Shown in pieces: positions 53,812-57,403 of a stretch of DNA of 64,000 nt. The position numbers and the translations under genes were made by a program. The stretch covers positions 1,550,001 through 1,614,000 of the forward strand of contig NZ_JAYEZN010000001.1 of assembly GCF_037031225.1 (NCBI RefSeq), read 5' to 3'. The stretch is from Halorientalis sp. LT38. GTDB lineage: Archaea; Halobacteriota; Halobacteria; Halobacteriales; Haloarculaceae. The notes beneath the pieces are model-generated. The model was given only the letters and a program-made list of their open reading frames with translations, had not been told where the DNA came from and made no database searches. Position 1 is the first letter of the stretch; the number at the start of each line of letters is the position of its first letter.

Positions 53812-55299
53812 TCAGACATAGCCGGCCACCTCCGCGCGAAGTTGCTCGTCGGCGTCGGCCAGTTCGTCCCGTTCGTCCGCGAGCGTCTCGCGGTCGGCGG
53901 CCACGTCCTCGCGCGCCGTCGCCAGCTGGTCGGCCACCGCGTCCGGCGCGGGCCCGCCCGCCGAGTCGCGACTCGCAACGCTCGCCGCGGGGTCGAGTGC
54001 GTCCTCGACCGCCTCGCGGTCCACGTACGAGGAGAGCGGGTCGTCCAGCACCTCCCCAGCGGCGGCCTCGACGGCCTCGTAATCGGGGTCGGTCGACTCC
54101 TCGGCCGCCATGGCGACTACCTCGTGGGCCGTCCGGAAGGGGACGCCAGCCATCGCCAGCAGGTCCGCGACGCCGGTGGCGGTCGAGAAGCCCGCGCCCG
54201 CCTCCGCTTCGAGCAGGTCTTCGTTCCACGCGGCTGTCGCGACTGCGCCGGCGGCAACTTCTGTCGCCTCGGTCACGGCGTCGACCGCTTCCCAGCCGTG
54301 GCCCGTCGCCCGCTGGAGATCGCGGTTGTACGCGCGCGGGAGCCCCTTCAGCGTCGTCAGCAGGCCCGACACCGCGCCGTGGGCGTCGCCCGCGCGGGCC
54401 CGCACCAGTTCCAGCGTGTCCGGGTTCTTCTTCTGGGGCATGATCGACGACGTCGACGAGTAATCGTCCGAGAGGTCGACGTAGCCGTCGTTCGCGAAGA
54501 CGACGAGGTCCTCGCTGAGCCCCGACAGCGTCGTCGCCAGGTTCGCCAGCGCGGTCGTCGCCTCCAGCAGGAAATCGCGCGCCGACGCGCCGTCCATGGA
54601 GTTCTCCAGTACCGAATCGAAGCCCAGCAGTTCGGCCGTGCGCTCGCGGTCGATATCGAACGGCGTGCCGGCGAACGCGGCCCCGCCCAGCGGCGAGCGG
54701 TTCGTCCGCTCGTAGGCCCCCAGCAACCGTTCCGTATCGCGGGCCAGCGCCCGCTCGTAGCTCAGGCAGTAGTGACCGACCGTCGTCGGCTGGGCGTACT
54801 GCAGGTGGGTGAACCCGGGCATCAGCGTCTCCGCGTGCTCGTCGGCGACGTCGAGCAACTGCTCGCGGGCACCGACCACGGCTTCGACCGCTTCGAGCAG
54901 GTCCCCGCGTAAGCGGTAGCGGATGCAGGTCGCCACCTCGTCGTTGCGCGAGCGGGCGGTGTGCATCCGACCGCCGTCCGGCCCGACGCGCTCGATCACC
55001 GCCGTCTCGATGGCCGCGTGGACGTCCTCGCCGTCGGGGAGCGCGCCGTGGCCGGCCGCCTCGATCTCGTCGAGTGCGTCGAGAATCGCACCGGCGTCCT
55101 CGTCGTCGAGAATCCCCTGTTCGGCCAGCATCACGACGTGGGCGCGGTCGACGGCGAGGTCCGCCGCGAAGATGCGCTCGTCGGCGGCGAGCGATGAGAG
55201 GAACCCGCGGGCGGGGCCACCGCTGAAGCGGTCCCGGCGGACCACATCGCTGCTGTCCGCCCCGTTCGCTCCGTCTTCCGTGGGTTCCTCGCCGGTCAT
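53812..55299 (-). CDS. argH: Argininosuccinate lyase
   Basis: A 495-residue member of the fumarase/aspartase superfamily with 'HTARSRNDEVAT' (113-124), 'TPFDIDRERTAELLGF' and the signature SSIMPQKKNPD (284-294). It cleaves argininosuccinate to arginine and fumarate. The acidic N-terminal 20 residues and the coiled, acidic C-terminal 40 residues are extra compared with bacterial enzymes. It starts 4 bp after the argG stop, so the two are cotranscribed. Confidence 0.96.
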   Translation of the reverse strand: MTGEEPTEDGANGADSSDVVRRDRFSGGPARGFLSSLAADERIFAADLAVDRAHVVMLAEQGILDDEDAGAILDALDEIEAAGHGALPDGEDVHAAIETAVIERVGPDGGRMHTARSRNDEVATCIRYRLRGDLLEAVEAVVGAREQLLDVADEHAETLMPGFTHLQYAQPTTVGHYCLSYERALARDTERLLGAYERTNRSPLGGAAFAGTPFDIDRERTAELLGFDSVLENSMDGASARDFLLEATTALANLATTLSGLSEDLVVFANDGYVDLSDDYSSTSSIMPQKKNPDTLELVRARAGDAHGAVSGLLTTLKGLPRAYNRDLQRATGHGWEAVDAVTEATEVAAGAVATAAWNEDLLEAEAGAGFSTATGVADLLAMAGVPFRTAHEVVAMAAEESTDPDYEAVEAAAGEVLDDPLSSYVDREAVEDALDPAASVASRDSAGGPAPDAVADQLATAREDVAADRETLADERDELADADEQLRAEVAGYV

Positions 55300-55303
55300 T
55301 GCT

Positions 55304-56551
55304 CTAGTCGTCGTCTCCGACGGCCGTGTTGGCCGCCTCGGCGTCCACGGCCTCGCTGACCTTGTTCGCCAGGCGCTCCTGGAAGCCGTGGTACTTCGCG
55401 ACGCCCGTGGCGTCGGCCTGCGTGATGTCGTCGGTGACCGCCTCGGTGTTGAACGAAGCCTGCCCCTCGGCGTAGCAGGCGTACTCGCTCTCGCGCGCGA
55501 CCGGGCGGGCCTGTCCGCCCTCGAGTTTGATCGTCACGGTCCCGGTGACGCGCGTCTGGGTCTCGTCGATGAACCCCTCGAGCGCGCGGAAGAGCGGCGC
55601 CTTCACGAGGCCCTGGTAGCCCAGTTCGGCCCACTCCTGGTCGATCTGCTGTTTGAAACTGCGCTCCTGCTTCGTGAGGACGAGCCCCTCGAGGGCCTCG
55701 TGGGCGGCCAGCAGGACCGTCGCCGCGGGATGCTCGTAGTTCTCCCTGACCTTGAGGCCGAGCATGCGGTCCTCCATCGTGTCGGTCCGGCCGACGCCGT
55801 GGGCGCCGGCTTTCTCGTTGAGGTGCTCGATGAGCGAGACGGGGTCCATCTCGTCGCCGTCGACGGCGACGACCTCGCCCTGTTCGAACTCGACGTCGAC
55901 CAGTTCGGCGTTCTTGCCGCTGGGACTGTCCGTCCAGGCGTAGATCTCGTCGCCGGGGACGTGGCTGGGGTCTTCGAGTTCCGAGCCCTCGACCGAGCGG
56001 CTCCAGAGGTTCGTGTCGATGCTCCAGCGGCCGCCGTCGCCGCCCTCGACGGGCAGGTTCTTCTCTTCGGCGTACTCCTGTTCCCACTCGCGTGTGAGGC
56101 CGAGTTCGCGGACGGGCGCGTGGACGTTCAGGTCCGAGTCGCGCCAGACCGTCTCGAAGCGCAACTGGTCGTTGCCCTTGCCGGTGCAGCCGTGAGCCAG
56201 GGCGGTACAGCCCTGCTCCTCTGCGACCTCGAGGATGGCGGTGGCGATGACCGGACGCGCCAGCGCGGTGCCGAGGGGGTAGCCCTGGTAGGTGGCGTTG
56301 GCCTTGACGGCGTCGAGACAGAGGTCGGCGAACTCGGCCTGGGCGTCGACCACGTAGTGGTCGAGGCCGAGCGCGTCGGCCGTCTCCTCGGCCTCGTCGA
56401 ACTCGGCTTCGGGCTGGCCGACGTCGACGGTGACGCCGATGACGTCGTCGTAGCCGTACTCCTCTTTCAAAAGCGGTACGCAGACTGTGGTGTCGAGCCC
56501 GCCCGAAAAGGCGAGCGCGACCGTTCCTTCGGTGTCGTCGGGTTCTGGCAT
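55304..56551 (-). CDS. argG: Argininosuccinate synthase
   Basis: A 415-residue ATP pyrophosphatase-type enzyme with the N-type P-loop AFSGGLDTT at 14-22, 'GCTGKGNDQLRFE' and 'WSIDTNLWSRS'. It joins citrulline and aspartate. It is the first gene of the argG-argH pair. An AATACA box lies about 20 bp before the ATG, and a stronger TTTTAATA box lies 269 bp upstream in front of a short arginine-rich frame, so two start points are possible. Confidence 0.96.
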   Translation of the reverse strand: MPEPDDTEGTVALAFSGGLDTTVCVPLLKEEYGYDDVIGVTVDVGQPEAEFDEAEETADALGLDHYVVDAQAEFADLCLDAVKANATYQGYPLGTALARPVIATAILEVAEEQGCTALAHGCTGKGNDQLRFETVWRDSDLNVHAPVRELGLTREWEQEYAEEKNLPVEGGDGGRWSIDTNLWSRSVEGSELEDPSHVPGDEIYAWTDSPSGKNAELVDVEFEQGEVVAVDGDEMDPVSLIEHLNEKAGAHGVGRTDTMEDRMLGLKVRENYEHPAATVLLAAHEALEGLVLTKQERSFKQQIDQEWAELGYQGLVKAPLFRALEGFIDETQTRVTGTVTIKLEGGQARPVARESEYACYAEGQASFNTEAVTDDITQADATGVAKYHGFQERLANKVSEAVDAEAANTAVGDDD

Positions 56552-56641
56552 GTGTGTGGTGTGGTGTCGGGGTGTATTGCGACCCGCCCGGCAGCCGTCG
56601 GTGGGCGGTTCGGGACGAAACGACCGTGGAATGGGGTGGGG

Positions 56642-56662
56642 AAAAGGTGGGCCTAACGGCCC
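56642..56662 (-). terminator. Candidate attenuator hairpin plus T4 before argG
   Basis: On the minus strand GGGCC-GTTA-GGCCC (56649-56662) overlaps the stop codon of the Arg-rich frame; TTTT follows after three bases (56642-56645). It could end transcription before argG. The 5-bp stem is short. Confidence 0.3.
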
Positions 56663-56796
56663 CGTCGTCGGAACCGCCGACGGATCGGCCGGCGGTCCGA
56701 CGTGCAACCAGCCGTCGGCTGGTTCCGTCGTGGGAGAAGGTGGACGGACCCACCGGTCTCGCCCGCCAGCGAGCCGGTTCCGTGGATCCGCGTCAT
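56653..56796 (-). CDS. Possible 47-residue arginine-rich leader peptide of argGH
   Basis: An ATG at 56796 follows TTTTAATA (56821-56828, minus strand) with a 24-bp gap, the normal leaderless layout. The frame has 47 codons with 12 arginines, 9 of them in the last 13 residues, and stops 101 bp before argG. The stop lies in the loop of a hairpin followed by TTTT. This resembles the design of bacterial leader-peptide attenuators. Arg-rich shadow frames are common in GC-rich DNA, so chance is a serious alternative. Confidence 0.3.
   Translation of the reverse strand: MTRIHGTGSLAGETGGSVHLLPRRNQPTAGCTSDRRPIRRRFRRRGR
56706..56724. repeat. Perfect inverted repeat AACCAGCC-GTC-GGCTGGTT
   Basis: The arms are 8 bp with a 3-bp loop. 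It lies inside the candidate leader frame; a neighbouring 7-bp repeat (ACCGCCG/CGGCGGT, 56673-56696) could form an alternative structure. Confidence 0.5.
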
Positions 56797-56820
56797 GTAC
56801 CCGGCACTTTCGTCGATTCG

Positions 56821-56828
56821 TATTAAAA
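56821..56828 (-). promoter_or_regulatory. Strong TATA box upstream of the argG leader
   Basis: TTTTAATA on the minus strand, 24 bp before the ATG of the Arg-rich frame and 269 bp before argG. Confidence 0.5.
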
Positions 56829-56949
56829 CCTTCCGAGATTCGGAGGCCGTGGGCCGCGGTGGCACGTCCCGGGCGCTCGGGTCGGCTGCCCCCCGTTTCG
56901 CGGCGACTCGGCCACAACCCCTTTGACACCGTCGCTCCCAGACACGGAC

Positions 56950-57132
56950 ATGAATCTCCGCGCCGGACTCGACACGGACGACCTCCTGAAGATCGTCCTG
57001 GTACTCGTCGTCGTCCTGCTGGCCGTCGAGTTGCTCGAAGAGATCGTCGGTCTCTTTTTCAACCTGCTCGGGCCGGTGCTCGCCCTCGTGCTCGTCGCCG
57101 TGATCGTGCTCTACTTCCTCGATCGCATCTGA
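56950..57132 (+). CDS. Small two-helix membrane protein (60 aa)
   Basis: A charged N-terminus ending in 'DTDDLLK' is followed by two hydrophobic helices with a short loop and a C-terminal DRI. The pattern resembles a small conserved haloarchaeal family (DUF7554-like, from memory). A CTTTGAC box lies about 24 bp before the ATG. Function unknown. It is divergent from argG and precedes another small membrane protein by 55 bp. Confidence 0.6.
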   Translation: MNLRAGLDTDDLLKIVLVLVVVLLAVELLEEIVGLFFNLLGPVLALVLVAVIVLYFLDRI

Positions 57133-57163: not shown

Positions 57164-57187
57164 CCGAAACGAGTGGGAACTATCGGT

Positions 57188-57403
57188 ATGGCAGAGGGGC
57201 ACGTGAGCGATGCGGGGGCGGGGCAGGTCACGGCGACGAAGGTGCGAAACCTCTTCATCTTCCTGGGGCTCGGGCTGCTCCAGTTGCTCGTGATCTTCGA
57301 GGGGCTGGCGGCGTATTTCGACGTCACGATCCCGATCTTCCCGCTGTTGTTCATCCTGCTCGGGTTCGTCGCGGGCGGCCTGCTGTTCATCGCGAACTTC
57401 TGA
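57188..57403 (+). CDS. Small two-helix membrane protein (71 aa)
   Basis: A soluble N-terminal 20 residues, then two hydrophobic helices separated by 'EGLAAYFDVTIPI'. No known motif is recognised. The start at 57188 is set by the TTTAAG box. It has its own promoter, so it need not be cotranscribed with the small gene upstream. Function unknown. Confidence 0.62.
   Translation: MAEGHVSDAGAGQVTATKVRNLFIFLGLGLLQLLVIFEGLAAYFDVTIPIFPLLFILLGFVAGGLLFIANF

Follow-up and report, generated by a model that had tools for sequence, protein, structure and literature searches.

A conserved arginine-rich leader upstream of argG in Halobacteria, a candidate translation-dependent attenuator

Leader-peptide attenuation is known as a bacterial mechanism, and to our knowledge no leader-peptide attenuator has been established in archaea. 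In the window analyzed here (64,000 nucleotides, positions 1550001-1614000 of a 3.58-Mb genome), an earlier note had proposed such a device ahead of the arginine genes argG and argH: a promoter, a short frame crowded with Arg codons toward its end, and a stop codon lodged in a hairpin. The question raised by the locus is whether this arrangement exceeds what chance yields in GC-rich DNA and, if so, what it does. The window comes from Halorientalis, and by argG its nearest named relatives are species of that genus.

A conserved reading frame and hairpin upstream of argG

The anatomy described earlier is largely what we find (Table 1). The TATA box is present as TTTTAATA at a spacing of ~24 nt from the ATG; the 47-codon frame has its 12 Arg codons, although its ATG is at 56796 and not at 56797. 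The sequence likewise confirms that the stop lies in the loop of the hairpin (H1), that TTTT follows after three bases, and that the argG ATG, at 56551, is 101 nt past the leader stop. Two small hydrophobic ORFs (56923-57132 and 57173-57403) lie on the plus strand, opposite to the leader, and point away from the arg operon.

Table 1. Features of the leader region and of the related ilvB locus (window positions, except for ilvB)
Feature	Position	Strand	Basis
argG (argininosuccinate synthase), candidate regulated gene	55300..56551	-	translation; relatives recovered with argG
argH	53812..55299	-	ORF list; start codon adjoins argG end
TATA box TTTTAATA, putative promoter P1 of leader transcript	56821..56828	-	kept in 8/8 Halorientalis
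Arg-rich leader ORF, 47 codons, MTRIHGTGSLAGETGGSVHLLPRRNQPTAGCTSDRRPIRRRFRRRGR and stop	56653..56796	-	promoter-anchored frame kept across loci
Arg codon cluster, adjoining H1 on its 5' side and reaching into it	56656..56694	-	9 Arg in last 13 codons
Hairpin H1, GGGCC(56662-56658)-GTTA-GGCCC(56653-56649)	56649..56662	-	155/158 loci, compensatory pair changes
Leader stop codon TAG, in H1 loop and first 3'-arm base	56655-56653	-	sequence
TTTT after H1	56645-56642	-	sequence
G-free pyrimidine-rich tail, directly 3' of H1	56626..56648	-	G 2% at nt 2-16, 134 leaders
Second hairpin H2 (CCGCCC...GGGCGG), 3' of the leader and 5' of argG	56584..56608	-	RNAalifold, Halorientalis
ilvB leader, locus L187 (G000:C1)	about 281.7-282.1 kb	-	further loci L184-L191, L210-L237

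We aligned the argG upstream regions of eight Halorientalis genomes. The TATA box with its spacing of ~24 nt, the leaderless ATG, the in-frame Arg-rich ORF and the stop inside GGGCC-GTTA-GGCCC were kept in all eight, as was the spacing to argG (99-102 nt from the leader stop, once 113), so that the comparison with close relatives proposed in the earlier note came out in favor of the frame, the hairpin and the spacing alike. Invariant among the eight are TTTTAATA, the start context ACATGAC and the end GTTAGGCC; the ORF is between 29 and 49 codons long, yet in every genome it is in frame with the stop in the loop. Within Halorientalis, the H1 motif with the GTTA loop occurs at argG only. The earlier note had cautioned that Arg-rich frames commonly arise by chance in GC-rich DNA, and that the claim rests on the combination; what is observed far exceeds chance. 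None of 3000 dinucleotide shuffles of the window's upstream region gave an ORF with at least eight Arg in its last 13 codons.

The same holds across the class. A TATA-positioned ATG opening an ORF of 20-55 codons, with at least three Arg in the last 13, was found in 74 of 98 haloarchaeal argG upstream regions, against a mean of 0.2 of 98 (maximum 1) in shuffled controls under the same criteria, and 60 further argG upstream regions of the family behaved in the same way. The hairpin core is present in 155 of the 158 regions (144 distinct sequences, the two underlying genome collections partly overlapping). When the ATG was picked by the promoter alone, the frame ended in or just after the hairpin at 134 of 144 loci, and the promoter-anchored frames fell into the three phases as 116:24:4 (106:23:4 on distinct sequences). 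The TATA element varies across the class (TTTAATA/TTTAGTA/TATTAGTA), and the peptides range from 23 to 49 amino acids overall. A stop in the loop is usual, not universal, since the frame of Natronorubrum runs on through the hairpin and that of Natronomonas often closes shortly past it. Leader or hairpin was not found in the argG upstream regions of Haloarcula amylovorans (L066) and Halohasta salina (L076); in the former, there is apparently another coding sequence right before argG. The leader ORFs were always upstream of argG. We conclude that the argG leader element of Halobacteria is real, conserved and well beyond chance.

The H1 stem has been maintained through paired changes. Exchanges were seen at stem pairs 1, 2, 3 and 5 (for pair 2, CG 129, GC 20, TA 6), as counted in a motif search that itself demands a stem and leaving aside the MAFFT alignment, in which several rows have the stem displaced by one position. 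Because of this selection, the 30-nt stretch surrounding the stop was folded as well, without any stem requirement, which gave a mean z of -2.29 relative to shuffles, versus -0.26 for a control window upstream in the ORF. The arms GGGCC/GGCCC are replaced by GGGGTC/GACCCC in Halobacterium and Halarchaeum, and by GGCCC/GGGCC in some Haloferacales. Just 3' of the stem, G makes up only 2% of nt 2-16 across 134 leaders.

Codon use and a parallel leader at ilvB

Counting back from the stop, each of positions 4 to 7 is an Arg codon in 69-75% of leaders. The choice of codon is unusual as well: CGA accounts for 47.6% of the Arg codons in leaders versus 1.9% in argG genes, and still 37.7% with the last six codons left out; in four genes of the window, it is used for 1 of 118 Arg codons. 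The rare codons may partly mirror non-coding base composition or constraint on an RNA motif. Where the peptide varies, constraint on its sequence is only weak, with a pN/pS of 0.68 (0.81 and 1.13 for control frames), as expected if the codons, and not a protein, are what matters. RRxRRPG[RL] is a recurrent leader end, in which Pro-Gly stands ahead of the stop, and other C-termini are also seen (RRRGR, RPGL, RPGSF, RRAL, and extensions such as RPE and LLAH).

A leader of similar design precedes ilvB. All eight Halorientalis genomes have a TATA box and an ATG opening a 27-codon ORF (e.g., MTAPLGTGSDPFTSRALVILAGIVGAV) whose peptide ends in LVILAGIVGA and whose TAG lies inside GGGGC...GCCCC, with the same G-free stretch 3' of the stem. 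The search for ilvB leaders covered the family Haloarculaceae, where the motif AT[CT]GTA and a hairpin were present in 36 of 36 regions. Leu, Ile and Val make up 48% of the last 12 codons versus 8% of the rest, and rare synonymous codons are again favored: GTA provides 45% of Val in the leaders versus 0.5% in ilvB, and ATT 67% of Ile versus 4.9%. That two pathways each have codons for their own amino acid, with rare codons placed at a stop-bearing hairpin, finds hardly any explanation other than translation-based sensing.

Among the other amino-acid genes examined, starting from the genus, no such leader was found at hisG, trpC, trpE or pheA; hom and leuA also gave none, these being weak negatives as several start codons are uncertain. 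The regions upstream of leuA1 in Halorientalis (L262-L269) share a block that hardly differs between genomes, GAGGATAGAGGAAGTCGCCGCAAGGCGGCTGG. Most genomes have an ORF of 24-25 codons that closes shortly ahead of the GTG start codon of leuA1; in one (L265), with one base fewer, it reads on, which may reflect a frameshift, a leader ORF or a misplaced start. Halorientalis trpC (L202-L209) has a highly conserved leaderless promoter, CGCAAGYCTTATGTGC, and a conserved start context, GTACAGTAATGG, without a leader ORF.

How the leader may act

We suggest, with a probability of about two in three, that the argG leader is a translation-dependent attenuator, in which rare cognate codons, the ribosome and the adjoining hairpin would act together, and that the ilvB leader would work likewise with its Leu, Ile and Val codons. 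The RNA would start at or next to the leader ATG, as a leaderless mRNA, and the speed of the ribosome across the Arg cluster, mostly rare CGA, would report on charged Arg-tRNA. With plentiful arginine, the ribosome would finish fast and leave at the stop in H1, H1 would fold, and expression of argG-argH would be cut down between H1 and argG. With scarce arginine, the ribosome would linger on the Arg codons by H1, keeping it unfolded, and argGH would be expressed. The ilvB gene would be under the same control. What the sequences show as conserved are the promoter, the frame with its cognate and rare codons, the hairpin and the G-free tail; translation of the leader, its response to starvation, the direction of that response and the output step are what we infer from them. 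H1 would likewise be covered by a ribosome positioned at the stop codon, and the anatomy therefore leaves the on/off logic free.

The likeliest output would be that transcription ends prematurely, at H1 or beyond it. Halorientalis shows no second promoter at argG, and the argG mRNA should therefore contain the leader. The earlier reading of the hairpin and TTTT as an intrinsic terminator is not supported: across the eight Halorientalis genomes the hairpin is conserved but a T run after H1 is not, the TTTT of the window being missing from its congeners. Nor is there support for the inverted repeats at 56673-56696 and 56706-56724, which had been put forward as alternative structures; both are present in the window, but they are not conserved, and we rejected them as parts of a switch since they lie in a lineage-specific insert whose segment only one other genome of the eight (L005/L088) has. 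A 14-nt repeat pairing 56671-56684 with 56598-56611 is not conserved in congeners either, and was rejected. The proposal of a leader-peptide attenuator on the arg operon is supported as regards the conserved Arg-rich ORF, the promoter, the hairpin, the rare codons and the parallel at ilvB, and unsupported as regards the terminator and the extra repeats. For the stretch between leader and argG, RNAalifold predicts H2 in Halorientalis; the Halosimplex, Natronomonas and Halosegnis groups have equivalent hairpins, and Natrialbaceae and Haloferacales none of this type. Pairing between the Arg run and the linker has a z of 4.85 over permutation, a value inflated by kinship and with positions that differ by clade; it is suggestive at most, and an antiterminator-type alternative pairing would be clade-specific and not universal.

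Two large groups show a different layout between leader and gene. A TATA-like box lies 22-40 nt before argG in 17/17 Natrialbaceae and 19/19 Haloferacales (36/36), and elsewhere in 2/62; this second promoter-like element, AAACCGNNGAATTTAAG, stands directly before argG, usually with a T-rich stretch 5' of it (L018-L081). T-rich stretches downstream of the leader were found in 13 of the 17 Natrialbaceae and 16 of the 19 Haloferacales. Such a promoter would bypass the leader. The leader in these groups may be a terminated upstream unit, combining regulated read-through with a basal promoter, and termination may occur at the T-rich stretch. In Haloferax volcanii, T stretches act as terminators in vivo, and so did one tested hairpin, with 59% efficiency (PMC7237163); the termination factor FttA/aCPSF1 prefers U-rich RNA (PMC11616081) and has been proposed to compete with ribosomes (PMC8116511). 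Termination at the leader is plausible in light of these observations, and translational or stability control is possible.

The latter would share the sensing step with the attenuator and differ in output: either leader translation would control whether ribosomes re-initiate at argG, or an RNA processing site would be formed by H1 together with the G-free tail, with no role for termination. We regard this as somewhat unlikely. The lack of a terminator-like T run in Halorientalis agrees with it, as do the unstructured first part of the 100-nt spacer and the position of H2 between leader and argG; yet the RNA around the argG start is CA-rich and unstructured, no partner that could sequester it was seen, and the T-rich stretch followed by a new promoter in two large groups fits termination better. 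More improbable is a nascent-peptide sensor, whose Arg-rich C-terminus would stall the terminating ribosome at high free arginine, the stalled ribosome then controlling argG. Such a sensor would account for the recurrent RRxRRPG[RL] end and for a stop held at a fixed place in the hairpin, but not easily for a variable C-terminus, the lack of conserved N-terminal sensor residues, a pN/pS of 0.68, or an ilvB leader of the same design with an unrelated peptide; moreover, peptide sensing would make the enrichment of rare codons superfluous.

Readings without a sensing ribosome fare worse. A GC-rich palindrome between promoter and gene could be a DNA operator for a regulator, with the Arg-rich frame a by-product of CGACGAC repeats that happen to read as Arg. 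This is very improbable: the loop varies from 3 to 8 nt across loci, which would rotate the half-sites on DNA and argues for an RNA hairpin, the arms change together, frame and stop are conserved, and the ilvB element carries cognate codons in a different sequence. That the ORF encodes a functional arginine-rich microprotein is scarcely credible in spite of its own promoter and conserved frame, given its size of 23-49 amino acids, weak constraint outside the last codons, invariable place before argG and lack of a match in Pfam or NCBIfam. The attenuator remains the reading that we favor.

Relation to known systems

The leader region has no match near the gathering score in Rfam, no Pfam or NCBIfam entry matches the leader ORF, and a full-text literature search, with subscription papers out of reach, retrieved no archaeal leader-peptide attenuator. 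Small ORFs upstream of haloarchaeal genes are themselves familiar: 16 uORFs, of low pI and some with a second TSS at the gene, are listed for long 5'-UTRs of H. volcanii, none of them at argG or ilvB (PMC4983044, Table 2).

It seems on balance probable, judging from these sequences, that haloarchaea have class-wide leaderless leader-peptide attenuators, at least at argG and (as covered in Haloarculaceae) ilvB, with rare cognate codons next to a stop-bearing hairpin and a G-free tail behind it, which would have arisen independently of the bacterial ones and operate with archaeal RNA polymerase and ribosomes. If so, a lineage whose transcription machinery resembles that of eukaryotes would regulate amino-acid synthesis by coupling translation to transcription, and Haloferax and Haloarcula would give simple genetic access to the response of archaeal RNA polymerase when a ribosome stalls, a question posed before (PMC8116511; PMC11616081). 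The leader would also add a small gene and an RNA element without an entry in Rfam, Pfam or NCBIfam.

The fungal arginine attenuator peptide (AAP; CPA1/arg-2 uORF) likewise precedes an arginine-synthesis gene. It acts through a conserved peptide sequence, and in AAP as in bacterial SpeFL and TnaC the peptide stalls the ribosome; the haloarchaeal leader instead has a variable peptide and clustered Arg codons, and does not belong with AAP. The SpeFL/OrnD-type leader is a peptide-sensor mechanism. Found at speF in gamma-proteobacteria, it is also a small ORF tied to arginine or ornithine metabolism, and is set apart by the different genes involved (PMC6386406).

The closest resemblance is to bacterial attenuators, from which the haloarchaeal leader differs in its leaderless mRNA, its stop inside the hairpin loop, the archaeal transcription and ribosome machinery, the lack of a conserved U run after the hairpin and the apparent lack of a universal antiterminator. 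Because the terminator feature is absent in Halorientalis, we do not file the argG leader among them, although it resembles them in its presumed working. Rare control codons occur in the leu leader of bacteria. Of the features of trp/his/leu-type attenuators, the sequence has the short ORF starting the predicted transcript, the clustering of codons for the amino acid that the pathway makes, and the rare synonymous codons seen in some of these attenuators; in common with E. coli trpL, hisL, leuL and ilvL and with the actinobacterial and Corynebacterium ilvB leaders (PMC1262725; PMC10272879), the argG leader combines a short leader ORF, a cognate codon cluster and a hairpin at the leader end.
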